Assembly: GCA_964036295.1 (NCBI GenBank)
Contig: OZ038469.1
Coordinates: 15,805,591-15,869,590, forward strand
From: Plumapathes pennacea
Lineage: Eukaryota > Cnidaria > Anthozoa > Antipatharia > Myriopathidae
Direction of reading: 5' to 3'
Length of the DNA: 64,000 bases
Made by a program: the position numbers and the translations under genes. Below, piece by piece: positions 22,765 to 63,706 of the stretch (position 1 is its first letter; every line of letters begins with the position of its first letter). Under the pieces are notes generated by a model. The model was not told the DNA's origin. It worked only from the letters and a program-made list of their open reading frames with translations, and searched no databases.

Positions 22765-24087
22765 TGTGTTATATGAATTTTAAATCCACTAAAAAGCGTA
22801 TCCACTGTTTTGGTCGGCACTAAGTTTCAGGTAAATTGTCACGCGTTGAATTCCGGATGAATCAACCGATAAGTGCACAAATAAAGCCTATATTTATTAT
22901 TACCTCTGATGCAGCAAATACAGCGCCACGTACGATAGAGAATAAGACACTTTTAGAGCTGGAAATGACCTGCACGCGCGAGTGATGGACACTAACGTCT
23001 CTTTTCAATGCGCAGCAAACTATTTTCGTAACGAGTGCATTTCTTGAACTCTGACTTTTTCGCAGCAAAGCAGGTGAAGACAACAAGGATAAGACAAACA
23101 CATTTTGATTATCCGTCAACTGTCCAGTTCTCTGTAATATCATCTTGTATGAAATGAAAATTTCCACACAAAATATTTGATTTCAAAATTTTTAGCCCAC
23201 TCGGCCGTAAACGAACACCGATCGAAATAACTTGCGATGTCATGTTTGTTTGGTTTATAATTGTGGACTTCATGCATCGTACATATTATAGCTTGTGTAG
23301 TCTTCTAAACAACAGAACTGTTGCAGCTGAGCTGTTGCCGAACTGTTGCCGAGCTGTTTCCGAGCTGTTGCCGCACTGTTGCCGAGCTGTTTCCGAGCTG
23401 TTGCCGAACTGTTGCCGAGCTGTTTCCGAGCTGTTGCCGAACTGTTGCCGAGCTGTTTCCGAGCTGTTGCCGCACCGAGTCTCGAGGGCAATTTCCTCCG
23501 TTCCCGTCATCATCATCCAAGACAAGAATAATAAGTTTTAGGATTTTTGAACACGATTTCCGTACCTGTAAGTTGGTCATCTAAACGGCACCTTAGTATT
23601 GTCGAACAGCGCATGTTCACCCTAAAAGATAGCAAAATGAAGCACACTTTAGTAAAGTGCATCTGTTATGAAAATTGGGTCCGTCTTGGTTCTTCGCAGG
23701 GCGATTTACTGACCTCGTCTCGCGATCCGCCAACTATTTTTAAGTATATCATAATCAGGGTCTCCGGGAGAAGGACTTTGGTGATGTAATCCAGATACTG
23801 TGAAGAGAAGATATCGATAGTTGGCTGCAAAGAAATCGCTAATGGTATGCATGTGAAGAATGTCCGGGAATGAAGGACGAAGAAGCAAGGGATGGCAAGG
23901 ATGAAAAAGCAAGCGAAAAAACATGCAGAAGAAATAGAACGGATGGCCCAGTAAAAATCCAATATGATGCAGCACAGACAATCCAGAATTAGACAAAAGG
24001 GTTCACGGCGCAAGAGGCCGGAAAAAGAAGATGCGTGGACTGGTTTTTGGTTTCTTTTTGTTCTTCCTTGCAAAAGTTTTTTTCTTT

Positions 24088-48445: not shown

Positions 48446-48969
48446 GCGACGGGATTCTACCATTAATACTGGCCGCAGCGGCTCTAAATTAATACAAGGG
48501 ACATAGGAGACAACTAATAATGGGTTGCGAACGTTTAGTTTGAGTTTCATTATCAAATTCTATGATTTTCCGGGATCGGTAAAATTCCCGTACATTTCCT
48601 TATAATCTTGAGTTGCGCAACATTTCGTCACCGAGTTTGGGCCGCCTGTGAAAAAAGAAGCCAAAGACCGAGCTTAAAGAAATGTGTTTACTTTTTGCGG
48701 TAGTCAATAAATCTGCATATATGGGCACAAAGGAGTAGTACCAGAAAGAATGCAAATCATGCATATATCTTCATGGAAACTACGTATGCATAACATACCT
48801 TACTGATCAGACGACAGTCGACTAGCCTTTTTTGGTCCAAAACCGCGAGATATCGTTTTGCGTTTTCCGTGTCAAACCGGCCCACAACTTCTTTGTTCAA
48901 GCAGAAAAATTTATTTCTGTGTCATACCTAACGGGAAAAAGGACAGCGCCTGTAAACAACTTAGCGAAC

Positions 48970-60090: not shown

Positions 60091-62362
60091 TCACTGAGTG
60101 GCAGTTTGATGTGGCTGGCCGTATGCTGCACCATACTGCTGGTACCACTGGTTGTAGTTGTAGGTTGAGGCACCCTTACAAAGATAAAAAAAAAAAAAAA
60201 AAAAAAAAAAATGGGGGCAAAAGGTCAGTGCAAAAATAATAATAGATTGCACACTAAATTTGATATGGTCACAAATTATTGAAAATAGCATATTTTAAAA
60301 ATATACCTGTAGCACATCAACCCATTAGCTTTCTCATAGACAAAAAAAGCAAAAAGTTAAGGCAGCTATGCTGATACTTTTGGCAACAGGGAACGAGTGA
60401 ATAGCCACTGAACAGACTTATCCACTAGCAAGGTTGCCAGTTACTGCACAAATACCAACTTTAACACTAGAACTGAATTTGAAAAAAATAAAAGACTAAT
60501 CTGAACTTCAACTCCCCATTCAACATTACTCACTGCGAGTGCTCCAGAGTAGGCAGCCCACTGGCTCTGTGGGGGGGTTGGGTAGGTGTACCCACTGGCG
60601 GCAGCTGTATAGGCATTTGAGTAAGTCTGATCGTATGCCTCAGTTCCCACTGCTGTAACACCTGTCACCTGCTGGCTACTGTCTGGGACTGCACCTTCAA
60701 CTTTCTGAAGCTTGGATTTGGGAACAACACTACAATACACAAAACAAAAATGAAAAGAACCAAGGCATTAATTTTACTAACAGTGTAACTTTTGCTTAGT
60801 GATTTTTTCACAGTAGCTTTTTGAGCACCTACATTACATCTTATACTATTCCCTTGTTAAGTATAGGAATAATGTTGTTGCATATCTCCATGTTCTTCAA
60901 TTCACAGACAAGAAAGAAGAAAACATAGCAGAGACAGGCCAATACTTTTGGCAACAGGGAACGAGTGAATAGTCACTGAACAGACTTTATCCACTAGCGT
61001 GGTTGCCGTGCATAAAGAACTCTAACAAATAATGGAACAGGTTTTTTTTTTTGCAGGGCACCTTAAGAACAAGACGGTGTCAATTTGTGCAGATGAATGG
61101 CAATGCAGATCTCCTAAAGGCACTTGGATGTATGTAAGAAAAATCAAGTCAAGCTTAAATTATTCACAACCTTATGGACTACAACTCTTACTAACCTGCA
61201 AAAACAGATGAAATTTACTGTCTGTGAAACCGAAGCGACAAATGACTTCCATGACGTCACAGTCAGAATAGACGGTTTTTCATGGTTTCTGAATGGTTAC
61301 TGTTGATTCATGGAAGTCCTTTGTCAGCTTGGTGTTGCAGACGGTATTTTTTGGCCTTGTGAAAACAACAGGTTTGTTTTCGCAGGGTACAAGTCTACAG
61401 TACACACTGGCACAAAACTTACTTTTCCTCAGTTGTTCTTCTCTTTCCAACAGCAGAGGCACCAGCTGTCTTGACTTTGTAAGCCTTGGCATGAGCTTCC
61501 TGTGCTTTTCGGATTTTTTCAAAACTACAACTGAAGTCCTCCAAGAACTCCTGCCTCCGCTGTGAAAAACCTTGCTTAACATCAATGGGAAGGTCACTAT
61601 TCTCAGCGACATCAAACACCAGCTCTACTGCTTCCTCATTAACTGGGGAGGCACTGATCTCAATGTCTAGGAGCTGAAGGTACAATCTCTTGTTACCCTG
61701 TAATGCAAAGGAAAAATAGTTGAATTGAGGCACATTTATCTAGGCTACTATTCAACAAGAAAGTTACAGATTGGTGCCTCCCTCCTAGAAGTGACAAGAC
61801 TTGAAGTTTCCTTTTTATGCCAAACAAAACAATAATTAAACTACAGTTCCACAACCAGCAACTATTTTACTTCTAGCATTAATTCAGAAAATCAATGTAC
61901 TACCTCCAGATTATTCTTCCATTGTAATCACAGACAAGAAAGAAGACAACAAAGCAGAGATAGGCCAATACTTTTGGCAACAGGGAACGAGCGAATAGTC
62001 ACTGAACAGACTTTATTCACTAGCGTGGTTGCCGTACCAAGATAACTATTATTCGGACATCCTGATCACTAAAGTTAAAATGCATTTACCTTGTCCTTCT
62101 CGATGGCATCTCTCAAGACCTGATTTGCTTTTACAGAATCCTTTTTTATCTGCAAGAAAATGGCCAAATGATCATCTACAGTCTACAATGTTGGCAGTAC
62201 ACCAGTAACATGCTTTTTCCTTCATCATGATCAAAGCAGAGCTACAGATAAGCAGACAAGCGAGTGGTAAAATTGAATACTGCTGACACTGCCAACTACA
62301 GTAGAGGTATTCAAAGAACAGGACTGGCCCCACAGACAATATTTCAACTAATTCAATTCATG

Positions 62363-62393
<31 letters not shown>

Positions 62394-63706
62394 TGTAGCA
62401 CATCTCCACGTTCCTCCAGGTAACAGATAACAAAGAAGAAGACAAAATAGAGACATGCCACTGATTTTGGCAACAGGGAACGAGTGAATAGTCACTGAAC
62501 AGACTTATCCACTAGCAAGGTTGCCAAAACTACAAATGCAATGCAATATTTACCTTAGACAAAAATCTTGCATATCTGATGGCGTAAAATGAGCTAACTT
62601 CATGGTCTGACGTTCCCTGGATGGCCTCCTCATACAACTGTGCAGTCATGTCCAGCTCCCCAAGCCGCCGTACTACATTGATTCTGCGTAGCTTTACAAG
62701 TATTTGACCAGGTACAGCTGCATCTAGATCAGCCAGGATTTGGCTGGCTTTTGTGGCATTTCCTGACATAGACAGAGAAAGTTTACAATATTAGTTTTAA
62801 AGGTCATACTTCTCTGTGAATGATTAACTCAGCTCTTACCACGCTCCTCTTCAAATGCAGCCCATGCCAAATGAATGTTAGGCTTCCTTGGGAGGTGAAT
62901 AGTACAAGCCCTCTCATACACACGACGACACCCTTCCACACTACAATCTTCCATGTAGGATGCAAATCGCTGCCAGAAGTCTTCATACAATGCACATGCA
63001 ATGACACATCTCTCAAACAATGTAACAACCCTCTCATGGCTTCCATTTGCTATTTCAAAATCAAGATAGTCTCTCCAGTTTTTCAGCTGCATGCGTTCCA
63101 AGGGTTTTACATGGAAATATGGTCTTTTGACTGCCTCTTCAAAAGTCCAGCGCTTTCTAACTTCCTCTTCAAGTGCCGTGAACAGAGCAGTCCTAGCTGC
63201 AATAACTTTTTCTCTTATTGCAACTGACTCAACATCATTCTGTCAAAAAGAGAACAGGTATCAGTTTATGTGAAACTTCTGATAACTGAAACTCCACAGG
63301 GCAAAAACCTTTCCATTCTTTAAGGGAGAATAATTTTTTATACTAATAATATTGAAAAAAAAAAAAATTGTTTCCAGGGCTAATCAGCTTCAATATTCAC
63401 CTTCACTTTTTCACCAGAAGTACGCCCTACAGATTGGTGATTTGCTCAAACAAAAGCCGATTAGACTATCACTCCTCACTACATCACTCAAAACATATCT
63501 TGTTTAATGGTTGGGAGAAACTGTTTTATAAAAATCATGTACCACCATAATATAAGGCAAGCCATGCATTTAGAAACTCAGCAGCTGAGAAAATCATGCA
63601 AACTACCAGCTAACCGTGAGTGACTGTGCCGGCATAGCTTCCTCTTCTCCTGGTGCTACGAGGCTTTCAGTGACTTCTACTGGTGTCGAACTCGCTTCTT
63701 CTAAAC
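60091..63706 (-). CDS. PRPF39: Pre-mRNA-processing factor 39 (3' part, 5' end outside window)
   Basis: U1 snRNP-associated splicing factor built of HAT repeats. Seven minus-strand exons: 63615-63706, 62840-63239, 62554-62762, 62090-62149, 61423-61697, 60534-60729, 60091-60174, giving the last 437 residues. HAT motifs are clear: VRKRWTFEEAVKRPYFHVKPL, LKNWRDYLDFEI, RVVTLFERCVIACALYEDFW, YERACTIHLPRKPNIHLAWAAFEEE, LYLQLLDIEI. The C-terminus is Tyr/Gln-rich (YNYNQWYQQYGAAYGQPHQ), as in vertebrate PRPF39. The remaining N-terminal HAT repeats lie right of the window. Four of its introns carry one H/ACA snoRNA each, so the gene is also a snoRNA host; human PRPF39 hosts a different (C/D) snoRNA. Confidence 0.92.
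60305..60438 (-). ncRNA. H/ACA box snoRNA, PRPF39 intronic copy 1
   Basis: 134 nt in intron 60175-60533, transcribed with the host gene. 5' hairpin: lower stem GGCAAC/GTTGCC, upper stem AGTGGATAAGTC against GGCTATTCACT, loop TGTTCAGT. H box AAAGTA at 60380-60375. 3' hairpin: ATCAGC pairs with GTTGAT, ATAGCT with AGCTAAT. The ACA box is at 60310-60308, three bases from the inferred end. Confidence 0.75.
60873..61007 (-). ncRNA. H/ACA box snoRNA, PRPF39 intronic copy 2
   Basis: 135 nt in intron 60730-61422. 5' hairpin GGCAACCACGCT-AGTGGATA ... TATTCACT-CGTTCCCT-GTTGCC. H box AAAGTA at 60948-60943. 3' hairpin: TGTCTC pairs with GAGATA, and ATGTTTTCTTC with GAAGAACAT. ACA at 60878-60876. Confidence 0.78.
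61238..61335. repeat. Foldback element in PRPF39 intron
   Basis: ACAAATGACTTCCATGA pairs with TCATGGAAGTCCTTTGT across about 60 bases. Probably a MITE, independent of the snoRNA in the same intron. Confidence 0.6.
61893..62033 (-). ncRNA. H/ACA box snoRNA, PRPF39 intronic copy 3
   Basis: 141 nt in intron 61698-62089. The 5' hairpin upper stem is AGTGAATA against TATTCGCT; both changes from copy 2 keep pairing through G-U. H box AAAGTA at 61974-61969. 3' hairpin lower stem CTATCTC/GAGGTAG. ACA at 61898-61896. Confidence 0.75.
62391..62525 (-). ncRNA. H/ACA box snoRNA, PRPF39 intronic copy 4
   Basis: 135 nt in intron 62150-62553, starting 28 nt after the 5' splice site. 5' hairpin as in copy 1 (pocket CTTGCT / CGTTCCCT). 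H box AAATCA at 62467-62462, which differs from the others but still fits ANANNA. The 3' hairpin lower stem GCATGTCTC/GAGATGTGC has nine pairs. ACA at 62396-62394, followed by a T tract on this strand. Confidence 0.78.
63375..63535. repeat. Degenerate CACTCCCAAG-family MITE in PRPF39 intron
   Basis: CAGCTTCAATATTCACCTTC, GATTAGACTATCACTCCTCAC and GGTTGGGAGAAACTG match the interior of the 21028-21237 copy. Confidence 0.45.

Follow-up and report, generated by a model that had tools for sequence, protein, structure and literature searches.

What are the similar stretches of 134 to 141 nucleotides (nt) that recur in successive introns near the end of a 64,000-nt stretch of Plumapathes pennacea DNA (assembly GCA_964036295.1, contig OZ038469.1, positions 15,805,591 to 15,869,590 of the forward strand; hereafter, the window), and what might they guide? 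On the evidence set out below, they very probably belong to a set of five paralogous intronic genes for H/ACA small nucleolar RNAs (snoRNAs) that were duplicated within the gene PRPF39; the 5' guide for one uridine of 28S ribosomal RNA (rRNA), at the site of yeast snR37, would have been kept in all of them, and their 3' hairpins would have drifted. The snoRNAs of early-branching animals have been described as poorly characterised (PMC3412847).

Location, copy number and host gene

Four of the elements lie in the window and the fifth starts 357 bases beyond its end; they are called here E1 to E5.

60305 to 60438, minus strand: E5, H/ACA snoRNA-like element of 134 nt, 5' pocket CCUUGCU/CGUUCCCU, 3' hairpin different from those of the other copies
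60873 to 61007, minus strand: E4, H/ACA snoRNA-like element of 135 nt, 5' pocket CCACGCU/CGUUCCCU
61893 to 62033, minus strand: E3, H/ACA snoRNA-like element of 141 nt, 5' pocket CCACGCU/CGUUCCCU
62391 to 62525, minus strand: E2, H/ACA snoRNA-like element of 135 nt, 5' pocket CCUUGCU/CGUUCCCU, H box AAAUCA
window-equivalent 64357-64497 (L006:5947-6087), minus strand: E1, the fifth copy, in another PRPF39 intron outside the window

The host is called PRPF39 because a coding exon matches the solved PRPF39 structure 6g70 (E 5.6e-59) and the Pfam domain HAT_PRP39_C (E 8.2e-53). The minus strand of all five elements is the sense strand of this gene, whose relevant parts are as follows.

62838 to 63242, minus strand: PRPF39 coding exon stretch that identifies the host (6g70 and Pfam HAT_PRP39_C)
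60175 to 60533, minus strand: PRPF39 intron with E5, the last of the coding sequence, GT...AG
60730 to 61422, minus strand: PRPF39 intron with E4 and an inverted repeat, GT...AG
61698 to 62089, minus strand: PRPF39 intron with E3, GT...AG
62150 to 62553, minus strand: PRPF39 intron with E2, GT...AG
window-equivalent 64235-64766, minus strand: PRPF39 intron with E1, GT...AG

Counted over the introns of the coding sequence, as distinct from those of the 3' untranslated part, E2 to E5 occupy the last four, one apiece. The inverted repeat in the E4 intron (window 61211-61351) is imperfect, with 53-nt arms of 72% identity and a 35-nt loop, and is perhaps a small transposon.

The recurrence of the elements is far from what base composition would give, as a 20-mer that they share has four occurrences in the window and a mean of 0.00 in 100 dinucleotide shuffles, and a direct-repeat search of the window recovers the same four copies, E2 to E5. 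A DNA search of the whole genome (290 Mb) returned five matches, all of them in PRPF39, and a second one, for which E5 as the most diverged copy served as the query, again returned just E1 to E5; the counts of both searches are lower bounds. Similarly, a covariance model built from the five copies scored above 17 bits for E1 to E5 only, in the window and in 20 kb around the gene, and at the same 17-bit level it found no copy in the three introns that lie between those of E1 and E2. A weak match to this model at window 48613-48717 on the minus strand (16.1 bits, E 0.032) is likely due to chance. Collections of viral and prokaryote sequences contained no match to one exact 21-base pattern of the elements, which is unsurprising if the gene is an animal one.

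The window had previously been described in a sequence-only reading, which placed one element on the sense strand of each of four consecutive PRPF39 introns; the splice sites bear out this placement, and the coordinates and lengths (134, 135, 141 and 135 nt) that it gave are exact. Its count of four is correct for the window and too low as a total, owing to E1. Copies dispersed genome-wide, which it had named as the finding that would speak against it, were sought in the two genome searches, and a dispersed repeat is rejected, as both place every match in PRPF39.

Anatomy and folding of the elements

All five copies consist of a hairpin, an H box, a second hairpin and an ACA box, so that the anatomy described in the sequence-only reading is present in every element, including the one outside the window. 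The 5' hairpin measures 57–58 nt in each copy and is closed by GGCAAC/GUUGCC; one base 3' of it stands an H box of the form ANANNA (5/5), which reads AAAGUA in E1, E3, E4 and E5 and AAAUCA in E2, and the distance from the pocket to this box is 15 nt without exception, within the 14-16 nt or so usual for the class. The second hairpin folds in all five, less clearly in E5, and is followed each time by an ACA; the 3' ends were placed by rule at 3 nt past the ACA, as had been done before. The folding energies of all five RNAs fall below the mean of 300 mononucleotide shuffles, with z from -2.46 to -4.86.

The two halves of the elements have diverged to different extents. The 5' hairpins are pairwise identical at 52/57 to 57/58 positions (91-98%), the three stem pairs that vary among them all stay standard, and both CGUUCCCU and the inner GCU of the pocket are invariant among the five copies; the remainder of the element is identical at 47/75 to 74/83 positions, the upper figure being that of E3 against E1 over the H box and the 3' half. 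In the lower stems of the 3' hairpins of E1 to E4, the six innermost pairs are near-identical and their changes are one-sided only (A-U/G-U and U-A/U-G). The seventh pair is C-G in E1 and E3, is replaced by A-U in E2 through a two-sided change, and is unpaired in E4; the eighth is formed in E2 and E4 and not in E1 and E3. The 3' stem of E5 is unrelated to those of the other four. In an RNAalifold consensus of the five copies, two-sided changes occur in at least one sequence at 9 of the 39 pairs, all in the 3' half; the covariation term is just -0.68, and the 3' half of the five-copy alignment is poor. The covariation that had been claimed for these stems is therefore slight: the stems of E1 to E4 are kept and one clear two-sided change is seen in E2, but most changes are one-sided, E4 has a mismatch and E5 does not belong to the comparison.

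Predicted target of the 5' hairpins in 28S rRNA

The right strand of the 5' pocket is CGUUCCCU in every copy, and the left strand is CCACGCU in E1, E3 and E4 or CCUUGCU in E2 and E5. For both types, the best site is AGGGAACG-U-G-AGCUGG in 28S rRNA, among all uridines of the genome's own large-subunit (LSU) rRNA pieces, 5.8S rRNA, partial small-subunit (SSU) rRNA, U2 and a 58-nt U6 match; the predicted target is the U of AGGGAACGUGAGC. Shuffled pockets equalled the score of this site in 5/200 trials for the E1/E3/E4 pocket and in 0/200 for the E2/E5 pocket, and with a second score, for which U1 and 5S rRNA were added to the scan, shuffles were as good in 18/500 and 1/500, respectively. A single predicted 28S target for the 5' hairpins is thus convincing.

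The target site has 16 matches in the assembly at up to two mismatches, of which 12 are exact and 4 are changed at the target U; an LSU match over the Rfam cut-off was present in 5 of 6 fetched 10-kb loci around exact sites. The changed sites carry A at G000:C10:11320422 and 11321909, G at 11350776 and C at C7:4727139, and they are probably degenerate copies of the ribosomal DNA (rDNA).

The identity of the site follows from yeast, for which the listed modifications in this region are Um2921, Gm2922, Psi2923, Psi2944, Am2946, Cm2948, Cm2959 and Psi2975, where Psi stands for pseudouridine, and in which Psi2944 is entered with snR37 and the peptidyl-transferase centre (PMC8307265). All eight of these anchors (2921-2975) fit the required base solely at the present position, in 4/4 LSU pieces checked (five loci had one). 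Because the eight anchors fit their offsets only there, the predicted target U corresponds to yeast 25S Psi2944, the snR37 site in the peptidyl-transferase centre; the snR37 assignment in yeast is itself given as a prediction (PMC8994135).

The proposed course of events is the following. One guide would have been duplicated within PRPF39 to give five intronic copies, each of which, if expressed like other members of its class, would presumably be spliced out with its intron and trimmed from the debranched lariat, and would presumably be bound by the H/ACA proteins dyskerin, GAR1, NHP2 and NOP10. The 5' hairpin of every copy would then present the same pocket and direct pseudouridylation of the U in 28S AGGGAACG-U-G-AGCUGG, and the 3' hairpins would keep the hairpin and ACA box that processing requires as their sequence drifts.

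Weighing of the alternatives

Several observations weigh against this course of events. The 3' part of E5 takes a different fold alone than in the full RNA. The pocket of E1, E3 and E4 has the modest shuffle rank of 18/500 given above and forms only three pairs on the g1 side. No Rfam family reached its cut-off for the elements in a search of the window. The likeness of the 5' hairpins to SNORA63, an Rfam family to which the discussion returns below, becomes marginal or absent once the guide is masked (43, 240, 43, 78 and 215 of 1000 shuffles as good for E1 to E5); SNORA63 is not among the matches of E2, E3 and E4 at E up to 10, nor do the 3' parts resemble the 3' part of that family, as 64 to 533 of 1000 shuffles were as good. 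In 19 of the 20 comparisons of 60-base flanks, the two sequences were not clearly alike (45 to 982 of 1000 shuffles as good). Moreover, no site beat shuffled strands for the 3' hairpins, over enumerated registers with a closed upper stem on LSU, 5.8S, 5S, partial SSU, U1, U2 and the U6 match, in a scan for which 18S rRNA is fragmentary in the assembly, the U6 match spans 58 nt and U4, U5 and U12 lie outside; controls were equal or better in 60, 59, 39, 54 and 8 of 60 for E1, E2, E3, E4 and E5, respectively. The 3' hairpins probably lack a conserved rRNA target.

The alternative that survives best holds that guiding is left to one or two copies, the rest being duplicates in decay, and that the likeness of the 5' hairpins is a product of recent duplication or gene conversion rather than of a role for every copy. 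The 3' hairpin of E5, which resembles none of the others, the want of targets for the 3' hairpins, and the poorer pairing of the E1/E3/E4 pocket with 28S than that of the E2/E5 pocket all fit such decay. However, the boxes and their spacing are intact in all five copies, CGUUCCCU and the inner GCU do not vary, and every change in the 5' stems keeps a pair. Divergence is also much greater in the 3' halves than in the 5' hairpins, which is not expected from purely recent copying. Decay of this kind is a possibility to be taken seriously, but the less probable one.

It could also be supposed that the 3' hairpins do act as guides, directed at various targets (the remainder of 18S, U4, U5, U12 or mRNAs), so that the array would represent new guides on one scaffold. 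E1 to E4 do keep their 3' lower stems while the letters of the pocket differ, and the 18S of the assembly is partial, with U4, U5 and U12 beyond the scan; nevertheless, no 3' register beats shuffles on the RNAs that were covered, and the differences look like drift, which makes this supposition improbable. A related and bolder proposal, offered as speculation with a low chance of being right, is that PRPF39 has turned, in this lineage, into a dosage array for one pseudouridine of the peptidyl-transferase centre, the snR37 site; its five 5' guides would be redundant and its 3' hairpins free to acquire new targets. If true, it would provide a natural series of guide-RNA neofunctionalisation within a splicing-factor gene.

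That the elements are intronic hairpins which regulate the splicing of PRPF39, and not snoRNAs, is hardly credible: 28 nt separate the 5' splice site from the first base of E2 and the host is a splicing factor, but an H box, an ACA box, their spacing and a pocket for 28S are found in all five.

Origin and spread of the copies

The best reading of the array remains that of H/ACA snoRNA genes spread by intron-to-intron duplication, as the sequence-only reading had it, with copies confined to PRPF39. Their presence in one gene and on one strand only is easier to explain by DNA duplicated inside PRPF39 than by retroposition. Sequence just past the 3' ends of E1 and E3 is alike (11/1000 shuffles as good, the best of the 20 flank comparisons), which suggests a copied flank shared by these two elements. 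A mobile repeat, such as a snoRNA retroposon or an element like a short interspersed element (SINE), inserted several times in PRPF39, is the least likely explanation of all: most flanks are unrelated and, on the sense strand, E2 is followed by a tract of poly-T, but the searches of 290 Mb, whose counts are lower bounds, gave five copies only, all in the sense orientation of the single gene that contains them, and no A-run lies directly 3' of any of them.

If all five copies are expressed, the array bears on the question of why one rRNA site has several guide genes. It further hints at a way in which a guide with two hairpins may keep one of them while the other drifts, and it offers a testable target in the catalytic region of the ribosome.

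Other features of the window and the assembly

Within the window, a 33-base tandem repeat of 4.4 copies (98%) occupies 23329-23472. Elsewhere in the assembly, 45/46 U2 and 42/42 U1 matches fall in one array at G000:C8:6836636-6896753 (L008, L059), built of repeats of about 1.37 kb in two opposed arms; at the two loci scanned, each repeat also holds a 5S rRNA on the opposite strand. On contig C7, at L027/L034 (one place) and at L037, 18S positions 4-605 are closely followed by 28S from about 1891-1925, and these joins may come from an rDNA unit that is truncated or chimeric and recurs, or else from an error of assembly. The first 135 bases of L017:7212-7987 (minus strand) belong to a dispersed repeat, for which at least 39 other matches, some 130 bases long and 89-93% identical, are spread over many contigs (40 of 1077 candidates scored), and no Rfam match was found in the three copies checked.

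Comparison with known systems

Weak Rfam matches at E up to 10 comprise snoR144 for E2, SNORA63 for E5 and E1, and SNORA53 (9.1 bits) for E1; the snR37 and SNORA10 families are not among them. Membership in a known Rfam family was considered and rejected, as no score came near its cut-off. The best of these weak scores, 20 bits against a cut-off of 100, is that of snoR144 (RF02412) with E2; the two have a lower stem of the GGCAAC/GUUGCC type in common, but their pocket letters differ.

SNORA63 (RF00092), which also bears the name E3 and is not to be confused with the element E3 of the array, is the more instructive relative. Its matches to E5 (19 bits) and E1 (16.3 bits) span the whole model, at a gathering cut-off of 90, and against its 5' half alone shuffles were as good as the 5' hairpins of E1 to E5 in 2, 8, 2, 3 and 17 of 1000. 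The Rfam consensus has a 5' hairpin pocket with UCGUUCCC, as in the copies here, and the same 5' pocket strand CGUUCCC; common descent of the present 5' hairpin and a SNORA63-type 5' hairpin is plausible. On the other hand, the CGCUUG of that consensus is missing from all five copies, the lower stems differ, the 3' parts are unlike, and the host is PRPF39 instead of EIF4A2, in which human SNORA63 is also situated. A search of the genome with the SNORA63 family returned no matches, but its controls likewise returned none.

In the chicken tables, GGgACA30 of EIF4A2 intron 8 is entered with its 5' hairpin for the snR37 site and its 3' hairpin for the E3 site and 28S-1612, and it is named there as a possible case of a novel guiding function, which one being left unspecified (PMC2653536). 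From its E3 entry and its host, GGgACA30 would appear to be chicken SNORA63. The site given for human SNORA63 is 28S Psi4420 (PMC9941101), and the idea that the 5' pocket of the present elements serves that site was dropped because the yeast anchors give the snR37 site and the chicken table divides the E3 and snR37 sites between the two hairpins. As for other guides entered for the snR37 site, the entries in the Neurospora row for ACA15 are the letter H, snR37 and ACA10 (PMC2780460); yeast snR37, Neurospora ACA15 and human ACA10 are listed for the same 25S/26S/28S uridine; yeast snR37, given as 386 nt (PMC8994135), is far longer than the 134-141 nt of the elements here.

PRPF39 itself is already a snoRNA host: a C/D snoRNA is entered for its intron 10 in chicken, and snoRNA 127 (SNORD127) is assigned to it in a human table (PMC8210301). 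These share the host, but they are of the C/D box class, a methylation guide for 18S, and not H/ACA; no C/D candidate with strict C and D boxes was found on the sense strand over window-equivalent 60174-66500. No title on these genes was found in the open-licence PMC literature on coral, cnidarian or Acropora snoRNAs or on PRPF39 with snoRNA. The cis-duplication of snoRNAs is a known process, described in chicken as copying into neighbouring introns in which the guide regions stay and the remainder varies (PMC2653536), in a genome where about 90% of H/ACA snoRNAs are entered as single-copy. Because of this precedent, and because PRPF39 was known to host snoRNAs, the novelty claimed in the sequence-only reading was overstated. 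The array can be set beside these cis-duplicated vertebrate paralogs, whose copies lie in neighbouring introns of one host with the guide kept, as do the five H/ACA copies in PRPF39.

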